Source: Flexilinea sp.
GTDB lineage: Bacteria > Chloroflexota > Anaerolineae > Anaerolineales > Anaerolineaceae
Direction: 5' to 3'
Length of the DNA: 37,741 nucleotides
NCBI GenBank assembly: GCA_017432685.1
Contig: JAFRIR010000130.1
Coordinates: forward strand, 1-37,741
Both the position numbers and the translations under genes were made by a program. Positions 20,204-34,901 of the stretch are shown here, piece by piece. Positions within the stretch are counted from its first letter, which is position 1. The number at the start of each line of letters is the position of its first letter. The notes beneath the pieces were generated by a model that was not told the origin of the DNA, ran no database searches, and saw only the letters and a program-made list of their open reading frames with translations.

Positions 20204-20407
20204 ATAATATTGAGGTTGATGTTTTGATCTTACACTTGTTGACCATTTAAAACGCGGAACTGTATGTATAATCAGTTGATAATTAGCGGCAATTTGGCGA
20301 TAGCAGCATGGAGGGTAAAAAGGGACTGTCCGCAGGGATCTGCTGGCACTTTGTTGATGCAGTCTGCTGACCTGCTACTTGGTGGGAAAAAACGCGGTAT
20401 TCCGAAT

Positions 20408-27096: not shown

Positions 27097-28023
27097 TTAT
27101 TTAATGACAAGTCCTTCAGATTCATTTAATCCCAGCACCAGGTTCAGGTTCTGGATGGCCGCACCGGAGGCGCCTTTGCCGAGGTTATCAAACCGTGCGG
27201 TCAGCAAAATCCGTTCTTCATTGCCGTCAACCAGGATCTGCATATCGTCCCGTCCGGCAAATGCGGCAGCCGAAAGGAAACCGCCCTCGTCGGCATTCTC
27301 GTCAAAATGCACCAGCGGTCCCGGGTAATATGCTTTGTATGTTTCTTTAAGATTATCAAGGTTTCCTTTAAGGCCTTTTGCATAAAGCGGCACGGTCACT
27401 TCCATCCCGGCGTAATAATCAGCAACGATCGGACTGAAAAGCGGAGCGATGTTCAGCCCGCATACATGTTTCATTTCTTTAAGGTGTTTGTGCTGCTGGG
27501 TTAGACCATACTGGCGCGGCCCCTTGAGCAGGGGATCCCGATCAGGAGCTTCATATTCAGCGATCATCTTTTTCCCGCCGCCGGAATATCCGGTGAGCGA
27601 AAAGCAGCTCAGCGCGGCGTCCGGGGAGAGCAGTCCTTCATCGACGAGCGGTTTGACCAGTGCGATGAAGCCGCTGGCATGGCAGCCGGGGTTGGCGATT
27701 CGTTTGGAGTTTCGGATGGCATCCCGGAAGCCTTTCAGTTCCGGAAAACCGTAAGCCCAGCCTTCCGCAGTGCGGTGAGCGGTGGAGGTATCGATGATGA
27801 CGGTATCGGAGCCTTCCGCCAGTTCGACTGCTTCCATGGCAGCCGCGTCCGGCAGGCAGAGGAACACCGCATCCGCTGCATGAATGGCTTCCTTCCGCGC
27901 AGCGGGGTCTTTACGGTTCTCTTCAGACAGTTTGATGAGTTCCAGATCTTCACGGGCGCTTAACCGTTCATAAATACGCAGACCGGTGGTGCCGGCGCTG
28001 CCGTCAATAAAGATTTTTGTCAT
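27097..28023 (-). CDS. argC: N-acetyl-gamma-glutamyl-phosphate reductase (short, type 2)
   Basis: 308 residues from the ATG at 28023. It reduces N-acetylglutamyl phosphate with NADPH. N-terminal KIFIDGSAGTTGLRIYERL, the diagnostic HAADAVFLCLPDAAAMEAV, and the catalytic cysteine in ANPGCHASG (C114) identify the shorter type 2 ArgC rather than the roughly 340-residue form. HKHLKEM and the C-terminal dimer region are present. A start at 28038 would add MPRTD; neither has a good ribosome binding site. It is the first gene of argC-J-B-D. No ArgR box or T-box leader could be recognised upstream. Confidence 0.92.
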   Translation of the reverse strand: MTKIFIDGSAGTTGLRIYERLSAREDLELIKLSEENRKDPAARKEAIHAADAVFLCLPDAAAMEAVELAEGSDTVIIDTSTAHRTAEGWAYGFPELKGFRDAIRNSKRIANPGCHASGFIALVKPLVDEGLLSPDAALSCFSLTGYSGGGKKMIAEYEAPDRDPLLKGPRQYGLTQQHKHLKEMKHVCGLNIAPLFSPIVADYYAGMEVTVPLYAKGLKGNLDNLKETYKAYYPGPLVHFDENADEGGFLSAAAFAGRDDMQILVDGNEERILLTARFDNLGKGASGAAIQNLNLVLGLNESEGLVIK

Positions 28024-28038
28024 ATCTGTTCGGGGCAT

Positions 28039-29695: not shown

Positions 29696-31477
29696 GTGAT
29701 TTCAAAAAAAAGGCTGTCCCTTTCCGTAAAACTGAACCTGTTGATCGCGGTGGTGATTCTGTTGCTTTCAACAGGGCTGATGTGGATCTCGTACCGGGTG
29801 TACAGTGATAAGATCAACGCTGTCTATATCCAGCAGGTGGAGCGGGCGGCAAAGGCAGCCGGGAATGAACTTATACCGGACTATGTGAGGTATTTCTGGG
29901 ATGAGATCAATACAGACAGTTTTCGTGAGATAAGGGCTGAGGCGATCCGGGCGGGCGATGAAAATATGATCCGCGACTGGCTGATCTCACGGCCGTCGTG
30001 GTTTTATTCGGAGCGGTTCCCGAAAGAGTGGGAGGAATATGATTTATCTGCCGCTGATGGCAGTTCCGGGCGGGATACGGAAATGACGCTGTACTATGAT
30101 TACCAGATTCTGACCGATATGTTGGAAACCTTCATGGAGGTTTTCGATATCAGCGTAGCTTATCTTCAGTTTGATGAGGATGGTGTAACCTATAACCTTA
30201 TGGATCCACAGGAGGATCTTTTCTACATCGGGTCTGTTGAGGAACCGATTCCTGAATTTTCAGAATACGGCGACAATGAATATATCCCGGCAACGATATA
30301 CCATTCGAGTTATGGCTGGCTTTGCAGCACAACATACCCGCTGGATGATACGACGTATGGTCTGCCCGCGGGGACGGTTGGAGTGGATACCGATATGGAG
30401 ATGGTGGCCCGGTCCTGCCGAATGTTTTTGGTGCACTGCTCGGTTTTTGTGGTCCTGATCACTGCGGCAGCGATGGCCGCGGGAATGTTTGTGATGCACC
30501 GGATCGTGGTCGATCCGCTGCGGCAGCTGGCCCAGGCGGCGACAAACTTCGCTGATGATGATGACAATTTGACAATGGATGACGTGATCCGGCTGGATAT
30601 CAATTCGGATGACGAGATCGGTGATCTGTACCGGCAGATCCGGGCAATGGAATCGCGTATCGTGAGCTATACGGATAATATGATGCGCATCACGGCGGAG
30701 CGTGAGCGGGTCAACACGGAACTGAACATGGCGGAAAAGATCCAGCGGGACATGCTGCCGGCTGTCTTCCCGGCTTTTCCGGATCATTCGGAGTTTGACC
30801 TCTATGCTTCCATGACACCTGCCCGGGAGGTCGGGGGCGATTTCTATGATTTCTTCCTGACGGATGAGACACACCTGGCAGTGGTGATCGCGGATGTTTC
30901 CGACAAAGGGGTGCCCGCCGCGCTGTTTATGATGGCTTCGATGATCCTGATCAGGTACCGCACGATCAAGGGCGGGACGCCGGCAGAGATCATGACAGAA
31001 GTCAATCGTTTGATCTGGCGGAGCAATCATTCAAGAATGTTTGTGACGGTTTGGATGGGGATCATCGACCTGACGACAGGGGTCATGACCTGCACGAACG
31101 CCGGCCATGAGTATCCATTCATCCGCGGGGCTGACGGTGAGTTCCGTATCCTGAAGGATAAACACGGACTGGTGGTCGGGGGAATGGAAAAGACCGTATA
31201 CCGGGACTATGAGTTGAAACTGGAGCCGGGCGACGCGGTGTTTGTTTACACGGACGGTGTGCCGGAAGCCAATGATCCGGCAGCGGAAATGTTCGGTATG
31301 AACCGGCTTGAAGCGTCCCTGAACCGCTCGCCGAAGGACAGTCCGCGGGAAATTCTCGACCGGGTCAAAGCCGACGTCGACGTCTTTGCTGACGGTGCAA
31401 AACAGTTCGATGACCTGACGATGCTGTGCCTCGAATACAAAGGCCCCGCAGCCCCGCAGCATGCGGATGCCGCGTGA
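29696..31477 (+). CDS. Membrane SpoIIE-type PP2C phosphatase with HAMP domain
   Basis: 593 residues. TM1 about 12-33, an extracytoplasmic sensor region about 34-240 rich in Asp/Glu and Tyr, TM2 about 243-268, HAMP about 269-335, a short coiled coil (TAERERVNTELNMAEKIQRDMLP), then a PP2C/SpoIIE serine phosphatase domain. Metal-binding acidic residues are seen in EVGGDFYDFF, VVIADVSDKGVPAALFM, VFVYTDGVPEA and FDDLTMLCL. It is likely to sense an outside signal and dephosphorylate the STAS protein of the same operon. The start is GTG (29696), with GGAG seven bases upstream. No RsbW-like kinase gene is present in the operon. Confidence 0.9.
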   Translation: MISKKRLSLSVKLNLLIAVVILLLSTGLMWISYRVYSDKINAVYIQQVERAAKAAGNELIPDYVRYFWDEINTDSFREIRAEAIRAGDENMIRDWLISRPSWFYSERFPKEWEEYDLSAADGSSGRDTEMTLYYDYQILTDMLETFMEVFDISVAYLQFDEDGVTYNLMDPQEDLFYIGSVEEPIPEFSEYGDNEYIPATIYHSSYGWLCSTTYPLDDTTYGLPAGTVGVDTDMEMVARSCRMFLVHCSVFVVLITAAAMAAGMFVMHRIVVDPLRQLAQAATNFADDDDNLTMDDVIRLDINSDDEIGDLYRQIRAMESRIVSYTDNMMRITAERERVNTELNMAEKIQRDMLPAVFPAFPDHSEFDLYASMTPAREVGGDFYDFFLTDETHLAVVIADVSDKGVPAALFMMASMILIRYRTIKGGTPAEIMTEVNRLIWRSNHSRMFVTVWMGIIDLTTGVMTCTNAGHEYPFIRGADGEFRILKDKHGLVVGGMEKTVYRDYELKLEPGDAVFVYTDGVPEANDPAAEMFGMNRLEASLNRSPKDSPREILDRVKADVDVFADGAKQFDDLTMLCLEYKGPAAPQHADAA

Positions 31478-31632
31478 TGTATGTCACGGACTCAGTCGAT
31501 CCCCGGATGTTACTGCAGCAGATCAGGCTCCTGAACATTCTTGCTTATGTCATGAGGACACTGTCGGACCAATTCGTCTGCAGTTATGTCCTCGATGAAC
31601 GAATCATTAAAGGCGCCTCTAAAAACTTATGA
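31477..31632 (+). pseudogene. Short coupled ORF, probably a gene end replaced by a MITE fragment
   Basis: An ATG overlaps the SpoIIE stop (TGATG) and opens a 51-codon frame (MYVTDSVDPRMLLQQ...). Its last seven residues and stop come from the B fragment at 31607. No family is recognised. Position suggests a third partner, such as an anti-sigma kinase, that has been lost, but nothing in the residues proves this. It could also be non-coding. Confidence 0.35.
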
Positions 31633-31660
31633 GCGGGGGTATGGGGCGGCAGCCCCATGA
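31607..31660 (-). mobile_element. MITE-like family B fragment (right half)
   Basis: TTAAAGGCGCCTCTAAAAAC, then GAGCGGGGGTATGGGGCGGC and AGCCCC, match the right end of B elements read in reverse. The large hairpin and the other terminal repeat are missing. It ends ten bases before the DnaA-box cluster. Confidence 0.7.
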
Positions 31661-31669
31661 ATGACAATC

Positions 31670-31795
31670 TGTGGATAACTTTGCGTTTTCTGTGGATAAG
31701 TCTGTGGATAACGTGGAAAAACTGTTGATAAACATTAAAATATTGTTGATAAACTTGTTGAAAACATGTTGATAAAACTTAAAAATTGTTCATAA
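31670..31795 (+). other. Cluster of eight DnaA-box-like 9-mers; candidate replication origin or DnaA-binding locus
   Basis: TGTGGATAA (complement of the DnaA box TTATCCACA) occurs at 31670, 31691 and 31703. TGTTGATAA occurs at 31723, 31744 and 31767. TGTTGAAAA lies at 31756 and TGTTCATAA at 31787. All are in the same orientation. Start-to-start distances are 21, 12, 20, 21, 12, 11 and 20 bp, close to whole helical turns. AT-rich DNA continues to 31932 without a gene, as expected for an unwinding region. No dnaA or dnaN is in the window. Confidence 0.75.
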
Positions 31796-31910
31796 ATAAA
31801 TTTGGATTCAAGTCAGTCTGAAATTATGTGATTCTTAGAAGTCTTTAAGATATAAAATTCAAGAAAAAAACATTAAGATTCGGCATTCTTAAATGTTATT
31901 TCAGTGAAAT

Positions 31911-31937
31911 AATCATTTCTTATTTCTGATTTTTATA
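31911..31937. repeat. Short heptamer-period array (H6)
   Basis: CATTTCT, TATTTCT and GATTTTT lie at 7-nt spacing, running up to the stop codon of the DUF4143 gene on the minus strand. Confidence 0.5.
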
Positions 31938-33285
31938 GAAATGGTGTCATATAGAGCGGAAGGAAAATAATGCCGTTCTCTTCGTTTAGATCTCCCGGGT
32001 GCAGCACATAGGCAGTGTGAAGCTGCTCAGCGTATTTTGCCATGAACTTCCGCATAGAGGCAAGAGCGTACCTTTTACCGGATTTTACTTCCACAGGTGA
32101 TATATTGTGCCGGTTTGTGATGACCTTTTTGGCTATCAGAAAGTCGATCTCCATACGATTTTCATTATGTTCCCGGTCATTGTTGGCATAGAAATAGAGC
32201 TTATGTCCACTTGCTGTCAGCATTTGAGCCACCATGTTTTCCATGATCATTCCCATATCTGCTTCCAGTTTGTCTAACAGCAGTTTTTTATAAATTTCTT
32301 CTGATACAATACTGTTTTCGTCAAAAGCATGGCTGACGAGCAACCCCGTGTCCCCCATATAACATTTCAGCAGACGACGGTCCTGATTTAGTTTAAGCCC
32401 AATGGCCGGATCTGTAGTGTTATAGCAATTGTTGACGATCATGGCGTCTGAAAGCCAAAAGAGCGGTTCGTCGTATTCCTTGAAACGGGCATCATTTTCC
32501 AGAGAGGACAGTTTAAAATGTCGATTCTGGTTCTGCAGCTGATTCGGTATCTCATCAAAGATAGCTTCCACTTTCAAGCGATCCTTGTCAGCACGCTTTT
32601 GAATGTCGTCGCGATACAATGTCAGAATCCTGCGTTTGACCCGGTCTGTTGCTGAAAAATCCTTTGTGTTCGCGAACTGTTTCACTGCCTGCGGCATACC
32701 GCCTACGATCAGATACTGACGGAACAGATCCATCGCTTTGCGATGCAGTGCCTGACCTAATGGTCGTTTTTTCTCAAAAAAGGATCGGATCAGCGGGTAC
32801 ATTGTATCGTTTCCAATCGCCCACAGGAATTCTTCAAAATCCATGGGATACATGTTTACAGGTTCTTCTTCAGAGGGAATCAGTATGTTTTTAACATTAT
32901 TCCTGATGGAAATGAGAGACCCGGTTTCAATGAAATCATATCGACCGTCTGCAACAAGGTACTTTACTGCGCTCCGGGCTCTCGGAAACAACTGCACTTC
33001 ATCCAAAATGATCAGAGAGTCCCGTTCATAAAGTGGGATGTTATATGCAGCTTTGAGTTTCAGAAAAAAAGTATCGAGATCATCAAGGTCGTTGAGGAAG
33101 AGATTACTGATTTCAGGAGAGGTACGGTTGAAATCGATCAGAATGTAACTTTTATATTCATTCTTCGCGAATTCTTCAACAATATAGCTCTTTCCTACAC
33201 GTCTGGCGCCTTGTATTAACAGGCAGCTTTTCCCGCTGTCTTCTTTTTTCCAGCGAAGGAGACGATCATAGATTTTCCGTTTCAT
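31933..33285 (-). CDS. AAA ATPase with DUF4143 domain (second copy type)
   Basis: 450 residues. An N-terminal AAA_14 ATPase has Walker A GARRVGKSY (26-34) and Walker B LIILDEVQLFPRA (about 92-104). The sensor-like IETGSLIS follows. A DUF4143 region has a C-terminal PD-(D/E)XK-like segment, MEIDFLIAKK...SPVEVKSGKRY. It is only distantly similar to the 12342-13601 protein, so it is not a recent duplicate. GAGAGGA lies seven bases before the ATG. Its promoter is embedded in 33-bp-spaced repeats. It runs opposite to its neighbours and lies next to the DnaA-box cluster. Function unknown. Confidence 0.87.
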   Translation of the reverse strand: MKRKIYDRLLRWKKEDSGKSCLLIQGARRVGKSYIVEEFAKNEYKSYILIDFNRTSPEISNLFLNDLDDLDTFFLKLKAAYNIPLYERDSLIILDEVQLFPRARSAVKYLVADGRYDFIETGSLISIRNNVKNILIPSEEEPVNMYPMDFEEFLWAIGNDTMYPLIRSFFEKKRPLGQALHRKAMDLFRQYLIVGGMPQAVKQFANTKDFSATDRVKRRILTLYRDDIQKRADKDRLKVEAIFDEIPNQLQNQNRHFKLSSLENDARFKEYDEPLFWLSDAMIVNNCYNTTDPAIGLKLNQDRRLLKCYMGDTGLLVSHAFDENSIVSEEIYKKLLLDKLEADMGMIMENMVAQMLTASGHKLYFYANNDREHNENRMEIDFLIAKKVITNRHNISPVEVKSGKRYALASMRKFMAKYAEQLHTAYVLHPGDLNEENGIIFLPLYMTPFL

Positions 33286-33614: not shown

Positions 33615-34901
33615 ATGTCTGTAAGCAATGCTTATGAAATCGCCCGGCAGGAATTTGACCATGTTGCCGACATGCTTGATCTGGATGAGGAAGCCCGGGC
33701 TTTTCTTCGGGATCCAAAAAAGGAGTATCACGTTCGGATTCCTGTACGGATGGATGACGGGTCGCTGAAGATTTTTGACGGCTTCCGTGTACAGCACAAT
33801 GATGCACTGGGACCGAACAAAGGCGGACTGCGCTTCGCTGCCAATGAAACCATTGATACCGTTCGCATGCTGGCCATGAAGATGACCTGGAAATGCTCCG
33901 TTGCCAACATTCCACTGGGGGGCGGCAAAGGTGGTGTTGTGGTAGATCCCCGTGATCTCTCTGTCGGTGAACGGGAACGCCTGGTCCGCGGTTATGTCCG
34001 CGCACTGTTCCCGGCTTTCGGTCCCCGCAAAGATGTCCCCGCACCGGACATGGGCACCAATGCTCAGGATATGTGCTGGTTCATGGATGAATACTCCATT
34101 TTGGCCGGTAATTACACCCCCGGTACTGTCACCGGCAAACCGGTGGGCGGCGGCGGCTCGCTGGGGCGGACGGAAGCTACCGGCCTGGGCGTGATCATCT
34201 GCGTCCGTGAAGCAATGAAACAGCTTGGCATAGATTCCACCAAAACCACCGCTGCCATTCAGGGTTTCGGCAATGTGGCGCAGTACGCAGCCATTCATTT
34301 CATCAAGATGCTGGGCGGCAAAGTGAAGTGCGTTTCCTGCTGGAACCGTGAAGAGAAAAAGTCCTTCACTTTCCTGAAAGAAGACGGGATCGATCCGGCT
34401 TTCCTGATGAGCATTACCGATGCCTATGGAACGGTCTCCAATGAAAAAGCGGCAGCAGCCGGTTATCAGGTGCTGGATGGCGATGCCTGGATCAAACAGG
34501 ATGTCGATGTCCTGATCCCGGCAGCCCTCGAAAAACAGATCACCGCGGAAAATGTCGGTTTCATCAGTCCGAATGTGAAGATCCTTGCCGAAGCCGCCAA
34601 CGGCCCGACCACGCTGGAAGCGGATGCGGTCCTGCGGGAACGCGGCATGTTCGTGATTCCGGACTTCCTCTGCAATGCCGGCGGTGTGACCTGCTCCTAT
34701 TTTGAATCCGTACAGAATGACCAGAACTACTACTGGTCCGTGGAAGAAGTGCTGGAGAAACTGGATTACAAGATGTCCACCGCTTTCAACTCTGTTTATG
34801 AGATGTCCGTCGAAAAGAAAGCCTACATGCGTGACGCGGCTTACATGGTTTCCATCAAACGGGTCGCCGATGCCATGCGCTACAGAGGGTGGATCAAATA
34901 A
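33615..34901 (+). CDS. Glutamate dehydrogenase (Glu/Leu/Phe/Val family)
   Basis: 428 residues, typical for hexameric GDH, which interconverts glutamate and 2-oxoglutarate plus ammonia with NAD(P). Substrate and catalytic region: GPNKGGLRF, KMTWKCSVANIPLGGGKGGV and the KDVPAPDMGTNAQDM loop with the catalytic Asp. The Rossmann fold shows AAIQGFGNVAQYAA. A C-terminal NAGGVTCSYFE motif is present. In an amino-acid fermenter it would run in the glutamate-oxidising direction. GGGAGG lies six bases before the ATG. The gene is followed by an aminotransferase and carbamate kinase, separated by repeat-filled gaps, so each is probably transcribed on its own. Confidence 0.93.
   Translation: MSVSNAYEIARQEFDHVADMLDLDEEARAFLRDPKKEYHVRIPVRMDDGSLKIFDGFRVQHNDALGPNKGGLRFAANETIDTVRMLAMKMTWKCSVANIPLGGGKGGVVVDPRDLSVGERERLVRGYVRALFPAFGPRKDVPAPDMGTNAQDMCWFMDEYSILAGNYTPGTVTGKPVGGGGSLGRTEATGLGVIICVREAMKQLGIDSTKTTAAIQGFGNVAQYAAIHFIKMLGGKVKCVSCWNREEKKSFTFLKEDGIDPAFLMSITDAYGTVSNEKAAAAGYQVLDGDAWIKQDVDVLIPAALEKQITAENVGFISPNVKILAEAANGPTTLEADAVLRERGMFVIPDFLCNAGGVTCSYFESVQNDQNYYWSVEEVLEKLDYKMSTAFNSVYEMSVEKKAYMRDAAYMVSIKRVADAMRYRGWIK

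Follow-up and report, generated by a model that had tools for sequence, protein, structure and literature searches.

A conserved, directional array of eight DnaA boxes in an Anaerolineaceae genome as a putative non-origin locus for DnaA titration or inactivation

Introduction

In Bacillus subtilis, DnaA-box clusters (DBCs) are located outside oriC, and removal of all six of them led to early initiation of replication, as stated in PMC5295017. The Escherichia coli locus datA, consisting of five boxes and an IHF site, is described as a negative control of initiation (PMC5295017 and PMC4585315). Two further E. coli loci, DARS1 and DARS2, are each built around a three-box core, to which DARS2 adds Fis and IHF sites (PMC4585315). 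Unwinding at origins has been attributed to a basal system in which a DnaA box is followed by DnaA-trios (PMC8287927). The idea that chromosomal boxes titrate DnaA goes back decades, and according to the abstract of an E. coli paper from 2025, experimental evidence for it was still lacking. The part of the literature on origins in Anaerolineae, Chloroflexi and Anaerolineaceae that was covered here contained neither an account of an array such as the one described below nor an origin study for the phylum.

Here we analysed a window of 37,741 nucleotides (the whole stretch of DNA under study), which is contig C105 of the genome G000, a 3.97-Mb Anaerolineaceae MAG of 151 contigs (87% complete, 4.7% contaminated). 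An earlier note, made from the sequence of the window, had pointed to an array of DnaA boxes and had read it as a possible replication origin. Our comparison with related genomes suggests, with a probability of about 0.53, that the array is instead a chromosomal non-origin DnaA-binding locus that would titrate or inactivate DnaA.

Results

A phased array of DnaA boxes next to AT-rich DNA

The array comprises eight boxes within 126 bp (31670-31795), all in one orientation and with the TTATCCACA sense on the minus strand, as the earlier note had described. Three consensus boxes TTATCCACA at 31670-31678, 31691-31699 and 31703-31711 (minus strand, spacing 21 and 12) are followed by five weaker ones on the same strand. 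Three of these are TTATCAACA (31723-31731, 31744-31752 and 31767-31775) and two carry two mismatches, namely TTTTCAACA at 31756-31764 and the last and weakest box, TTATGAACA, at 31787-31795; the count of three perfect boxes and five variants was therefore correct. The box starts (31670, 31691, 31703, 31723, 31744, 31756, 31767 and 31787) reproduced the spacings of 21, 12, 20, 21, 12, 11 and 20 bp exactly, and an additional match with two mismatches at 31712 had not been counted before. Phasing of the eight boxes was pronounced at a helical repeat of 10.5 bp (R = 0.87, compared to R = 0.15 at 10.0 bp), in line with the proposal that most boxes share one face of the DNA; the P values for phasing are optimistic, because the array was already known when the weaker boxes were selected.

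From left to right the boxes become weaker, beginning with the consensus sequence, and the weak end faces AT-rich DNA with a palindrome in it. This stretch past the array (31797-31932), which had been taken to be AT-rich and gene-free, is indeed non-coding, and the 280 bp starting at 31670 have a GC content of 26%.

The array of eight DnaA boxes is real and not a product of chance. Within 140 bp there are six boxes with no more than one mismatch, a number that was reached in none of 5000 dinucleotide shuffles (mean 0.14, maximum 3), and the largest same-strand cluster in 100 shuffles of the whole window contained two boxes. Counted over the whole window, boxes with at most one mismatch stood out less: there were 12, compared to a shuffle mean of 6.95, and 4 of 100 shuffles matched this number. 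In 104 kb of sampled G000 sequence, three exact boxes were present where 0.8 were expected from base composition, and all three belong to the array. Likewise, all five pairs of TTATCMACA (within 24 bp) in G000 are found at the array, which is the only such cluster of the genome. A tRNA scan of the window and an Rfam search at gathering scores gave no hits.

Conservation of the array in the genus

Conservation in relatives had been named as a check on the array, and it was present in five of the 14 genomes of the genus (G000, G005, G006, G012 and G013). Each of these carries eight to nine boxes with at most two mismatches on one strand, apart from one opposite match in G013, and the offsets agree between the five genomes (0, 20-21, 32-33, 53-55, 74-76 and on). 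In all five, the consensus boxes are on the left side of the row and the weaker boxes on the right. The exact 21/12 geometry is common to G000, G005, G012 and G013, and G006 has 20/12. In the four genomes with the exact geometry, identity was 98% in the boxes and 61% in the spacers. In each of the ten pairs, homology began at -5 to 0 bp relative to the first box, although the aligned sequences reached 400 bp to the left; to the right it continued through the palindrome in two of the ten (G000-G012 and G005-G012) and stopped near the last box in the others. The glutamate dehydrogenases of G005, G006, G012 and G013 are 90-96% identical to the one encoded in the window.

The array was not found in the remaining nine genomes of the genus, two of which are 80-82% complete, and therefore does not serve a general need. 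Its patchy presence suggests an added control and not a basic need.

Pairs of TTATCMACA within 24 bp were detected in seven of the 14 genomes; the box rows of G001 and G007 are situated at another locus and were left out of the five. These two rows (G001:C11:65275-65337, L039; G007:C488:3110-3318, L042) represent a shared, differing row beside another pair of related genes, and such arrays may therefore have a repeated origin within the genus. Boxes in the 21/12 (or 20/12) geometry were also observed in 88 stretches from many phyla, including Meiothermus, Thermus, Competibacter, Clostridia and others.

Gene neighbourhood of the array

In the window, the array is flanked on the left by a gene for a SpoIIE-type phosphatase with a HAMP domain (29696-31477, plus strand) and on the right by a gene for an AAA_14/DUF4143 ATPase (31933-33285, minus strand). 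Both point their 3' ends towards the array, and in G012 the array also sits between two 3' ends. Further to the right, a gdhA-type glutamate dehydrogenase gene (33615-34901, plus strand) is found near the array in four of the five genomes, and to the left argC (27097-28038, minus strand), the first gene of argCJBD, is located on the array contig in three of the five. Both argC and gdhA are near the array in G000 and G006. G005 and G012 have gdhA without argC, with argJ on another contig, and G013 has argC near the array, with gdhA on another contig and no box cluster in the 20 kb around it. The AAA_14 gene is at the array in G000 and G012, and was found neither at the arrays of G005 and G006 nor in the 0.85 kb to the right of the array of G013. 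The nearest ORF on the left differs in all five genomes. Using gdhA in congeners to place the array on the chromosome yielded no position.

DnaA is a known transcription factor, and the distance from the array to gdhA downstream of it is about 0.4 kb in G005. The array might be a DnaA-controlled promoter region of a neighbour, be it gdhA, argC or the phosphatase operon. However, the flanking genes vary among the five genomes, and gdhA or argC/argJ is separated from the array in some of them, which makes a promoter for one gene unlikely. The two 3' ends facing the array in G000 and G012 also argue against a promoter, as do promoter-like matches near chance level (3 against a mean of 1.5 at 31400-32000).

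A palindrome beyond the array

About 80-100 bp past the last box, the window contains the palindrome TTAAGA-N8-TCTTAA (31873-31892). It is the sole such site in G000, and G005, G012 and G013 also have a single match per genome, always at the array; G006 carries a form with one changed base at its array, and G007 has one match elsewhere. A reversed control pattern occurred 0-3 times per genome, including once each in G005 and G013, and therefore only the placement of the palindrome is telling and not its number of one per genome. The motifs TTAAGA/TCTTAA were counted 14 times at the five array loci (shuffle mean 2.8, reached in 0 of 1000) and seven times at four probable oriC loci (shuffle mean 2.2, reached in 11 of 1000), figures that overstate the enrichment because the sequences are related.

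Folded as RNA, the palindrome gave -6.5 and -7.3 kcal/mol, which was better than 197 and 198, respectively, of 200 shuffled sequences. On the minus strand it is followed by a T-run. In G000 it is a possible terminator of the AAA_14 gene; however, the palindrome is present in G005 and G006 without an AAA_14 gene there. A terminator scan of 31400-32000 found none.

A candidate replication origin at another locus

The GC-skew check proposed for the array pointed to a different place. On contig C143 of G000, a pair of parS sites (46693 and 46740) is located 0.6 kb from a two-strand cluster of variant boxes (47363-47532), a stretch in which no exact consensus box was present. Similar box clusters were found in G005, G006 and G013, and also in G012 at the end of contig C62. 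A search of the parS locus for clusters of three boxes with at most one mismatch each detected none in G002, G004, G008, G009, G010, G011 and contig C87 of G012. Left and right of the C143-type locus, the skew flipped from negative to positive in G000 (-0.053/+0.053), G005 (-0.036/+0.068), G006 (-0.067/+0.058), G013 (-0.024/+0.042) and G004 (-0.080/+0.067). When split by gene strand at third positions, the skew was less clean because genes carry coding bias: plus-strand genes on the right gave +0.007 in G000 and -0.085 in G013, and minus-strand genes on the left were near zero in G000, G005 and G013.

The genome G004 is a single contig (2,945,494 bp). Along it, 20 samples of 20 kb were measured, and the GC skew was negative in the first two, positive in the next ten (290-1615 kb) and negative in the last eight (1740-2775 kb); on a fine scale it switched at 291-296 kb, beside exact parS sites at 296306 and 296353. 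In G004, dnaA is at 386 kb, which puts it at a distance of 91 kb from this switch, and dnaN is at 2.75 Mb. No flip was observed at parS in G009 (-0.030/-0.015), G008 (-0.021/-0.023) and G002 (+0.022/+0.026), and the assignment of the origin is therefore limited to the clade of the window and G004. G001 showed a weak flip at this locus (-0.068/+0.010), the skew of G009 was weak in all 12 samples, and the sequences of G010, G003 and G011 were too short on one side of parS. Judged on skew, parS and boxes conserved in relatives, the origin of the window's clade is probably the C143-type locus and not the array.

Genes of the parS locus were looked for in stretches from 10 of the 13 congeners, with an ABC-F gene present in 10/10, a cyclophilin gene in 9/10 and an NTase-like gene in 9/10; the exception, G012, was found later, and G003 and G011 were left out of this comparison. 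Between the oriC cluster and the NTase-like gene of G000 lies a second AAA_14/DUF4143 ATPase gene (G000:C143:47794-49092; L116:1095-2393), directly adjoining the cluster; G005 carries a homologue of it in the corresponding position. A protein with an eCIS core domain (PF13699) is encoded near the oriC cluster (L116:4339-6375).

The array as an origin

A negative-to-positive skew flip at the array was seen in none of the five genomes. In the two genomes with long flanks on both sides, the skew had one sign (G006 -0.080/-0.053; G012 +0.040/+0.041). Values in G000 and G005 were 0.000/+0.041 and +0.005/+0.053, with a right side of about 6 kb. The left flank of G013 gave -0.066 and its right flank was unused, the array contig ending 0.85 kb to the right.

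Other points raised about an origin at the array held in part. The gene-strand switch near 28.1 kb is present and coincides with a change of skew sign at 27-28 kb, not at the array. The 5S rRNA at position 1 also has a match, but this is truncated and scored 26.9 bits against an Rfam cut-off of 38. As had been remarked, dnaA and dnaN are not nearby; they are on contigs C28 and C101, respectively. No parS with up to two mismatches was found in the window.

Trios were searched with a loose pattern (NAN) and a stricter one (CTA/TAG-type runs). Loose runs of 3-8 triplets occur beside the array boxes in all five genomes. Stricter runs were absent beside the array of G000 and G005, and those at the arrays of G006, G012 and G013 were short and at unshared places. 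The oriC loci of G000, G004, G005, G006 and G013 did not contain stricter runs either.

The probable oriCs of other Anaerolineaceae contain, on the NTase side, a direct row of TGTGGATAA at 20-21 bp, which the array resembles. Unlike the array, they add opposed boxes followed by trio-like CTA runs (8 of 10 loci, with a pattern written after the runs had been seen), and no such runs are beside the array of G000 or G005.

Opposed boxes and CTA runs beside an NTase-like gene were observed in other genera at the loci L044, L046, L048, L051, L052, L054, L055 and L056. These NTase loci are candidate origins that are separate from dnaA and would include an unwinding module. Among the NTase loci of the family, the skew turned from negative to positive in G023, G032 and G029, weakly in G024 and G014, and not in G026 and G030.

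With a conserved box cluster adjoining AT-rich DNA, the array fits one feature of an oriC. If it were the chromosomal oriC, DnaA would fill the array and melt the adjoining AT-rich DNA. The directional phasing of the boxes, their likeness to the NTase-side row of the family and the loose NAN runs agree with such a function. Nevertheless, we consider it highly improbable, as G000, G005, G006, G013 and G004 have their skew flip at the C143-type locus, and G006 and G012 show none at the array; in addition, parS is at C143 and not in the window, CTA/TAG-type runs are missing beside the array of G000 and G005, and a fork moving left would meet the 5S rRNA fragment head-on.

The array could also be a second, conditional or dormant DnaA-dependent origin that fires when oriC is blocked, or too rarely to leave a skew. 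An origin-like anatomy with conserved boxes, the loose runs beside them and the near-zero skew of the left flank in G000 and G005, a pattern expected of a relocated or mixed-direction region, are compatible with this. A conditional origin in particular would use the array as a filament track into AT-rich DNA, gated by the palindrome and kept in the clade, next to a main oriC without a consensus box in G000. We regard a second origin as rather unlikely, and its conditional version as rather doubtful too, given that in G006 and G012 the skew clearly has the same sign to the left and right of the array, and that stricter trio-like runs are absent in G000 and G005 and unshared elsewhere.

The direct box row of the family oriCs at 20-21 bp leaves room for a further explanation, namely that one half of an old oriC was copied to this place and has no function, or that the array is an integrated plasmid origin of the iteron type. 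However, boxes that are preserved while spacers drift make a relic of this kind rather improbable, and besides gdhA, two followers and the arg genes there is no widely shared neighbour at the array. The iteron-type plasmid origin was rejected, as no shared replication gene was seen among the annotated neighbours of the array.

A dnaA-linked origin was likewise rejected, since contig C28 of G000 contains no exact box. The contig does have six boxes with one mismatch, whereas 200 shuffles gave five at most (mean 1.8). Two of the six, with the sequence TTATCCAAA, are located at the 3' end of dnaA (L006:8876-8922; dnaA L006:7418-8884), 38 bp apart and on opposite strands. The weak boxes may be what is left of an origin that was linked to dnaA.

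In a wider set of 61 genomes, 15 had no box pairs. Among the genomes of the family with a box pair, 0 of 26 have dnaA on the contig of the pair, and in 8 of 20 order-level relatives the pair is within 2 kb of dnaA; a pair and dnaA on different contigs are weak evidence, because most genomes are fragmented.

Discussion

A DnaA-titration or datA/DARS-like site, which the earlier note had offered as its alternative to an origin, is the reading best supported here, with a function that we infer from anatomy and conservation only. A locus that titrates or inactivates DnaA is favoured because the boxes are kept while the gene neighbours change, and because another locus looks like the origin. Several points run counter to it, among them that TTATCAACA is a non-consensus box and that a directional array from strong to weak boxes beside AT-rich DNA resembles one half of an origin.

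The DnaA of the host carries the motif GGRDHTTVIHA, which we take to be the motif that reads the boxes. DnaA might nucleate on the consensus boxes at the left of the array and then extend to the weaker boxes by cooperative binding, forming a filament whose spread a factor bound at the palindrome could help or limit. Occupied in this way, the array would hold eight or more DnaA molecules and lower the amount of free active DnaA, and the filament would perhaps stimulate ATP hydrolysis, as datA does. As a consequence, the array could delay or limit the firing of oriC, which in G000 has only weak boxes of its own.

For titration by chromosomal boxes, an array that occurs in one clade but was not detected in its congeners represents a natural comparison with and without the locus. 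Its graded and phased layout would also be a clean test case for directional DnaA filaments away from the origin.

Among the known systems, DARS1 and DARS2 are similar to the array in being non-coding DnaA-box loci, as the array is one away from the probable oriC. The array might in this case reload DnaA with ATP instead of removing DnaA, and the palindrome could hold an accessory protein. We consider this quite improbable, as the three-box core with specific flanks or IHF/Fis sites described for E. coli in PMC4585315 is not matched by the layout of the array with its eight direct repeats.

With datA, the array shares its non-coding position, several boxes and, in the palindrome, a possible site for a second protein. 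It differs in having eight one-directional boxes instead of five, and in its layout. The IHF consensus WATCAANNNNTTR, which is that of E. coli and may not apply here, was absent from 31601-31960 and occurred once in the window, at 20269; one feature of datA is therefore missing by sequence. With the B. subtilis DBCs, the array has in common what titration asks of the boxes, that is, several near-consensus boxes outside the probable oriC. Unlike those clusters, it is a single cluster of eight phased direct repeats, graded and accompanied by a palindrome, in five genomes of one genus. Because the layout differs and the IHF consensus is absent near the array, we claim membership neither in datA nor in the DBCs; by analogy, the array would work most like the DnaA-box clusters of B. 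subtilis and datA of E. coli.
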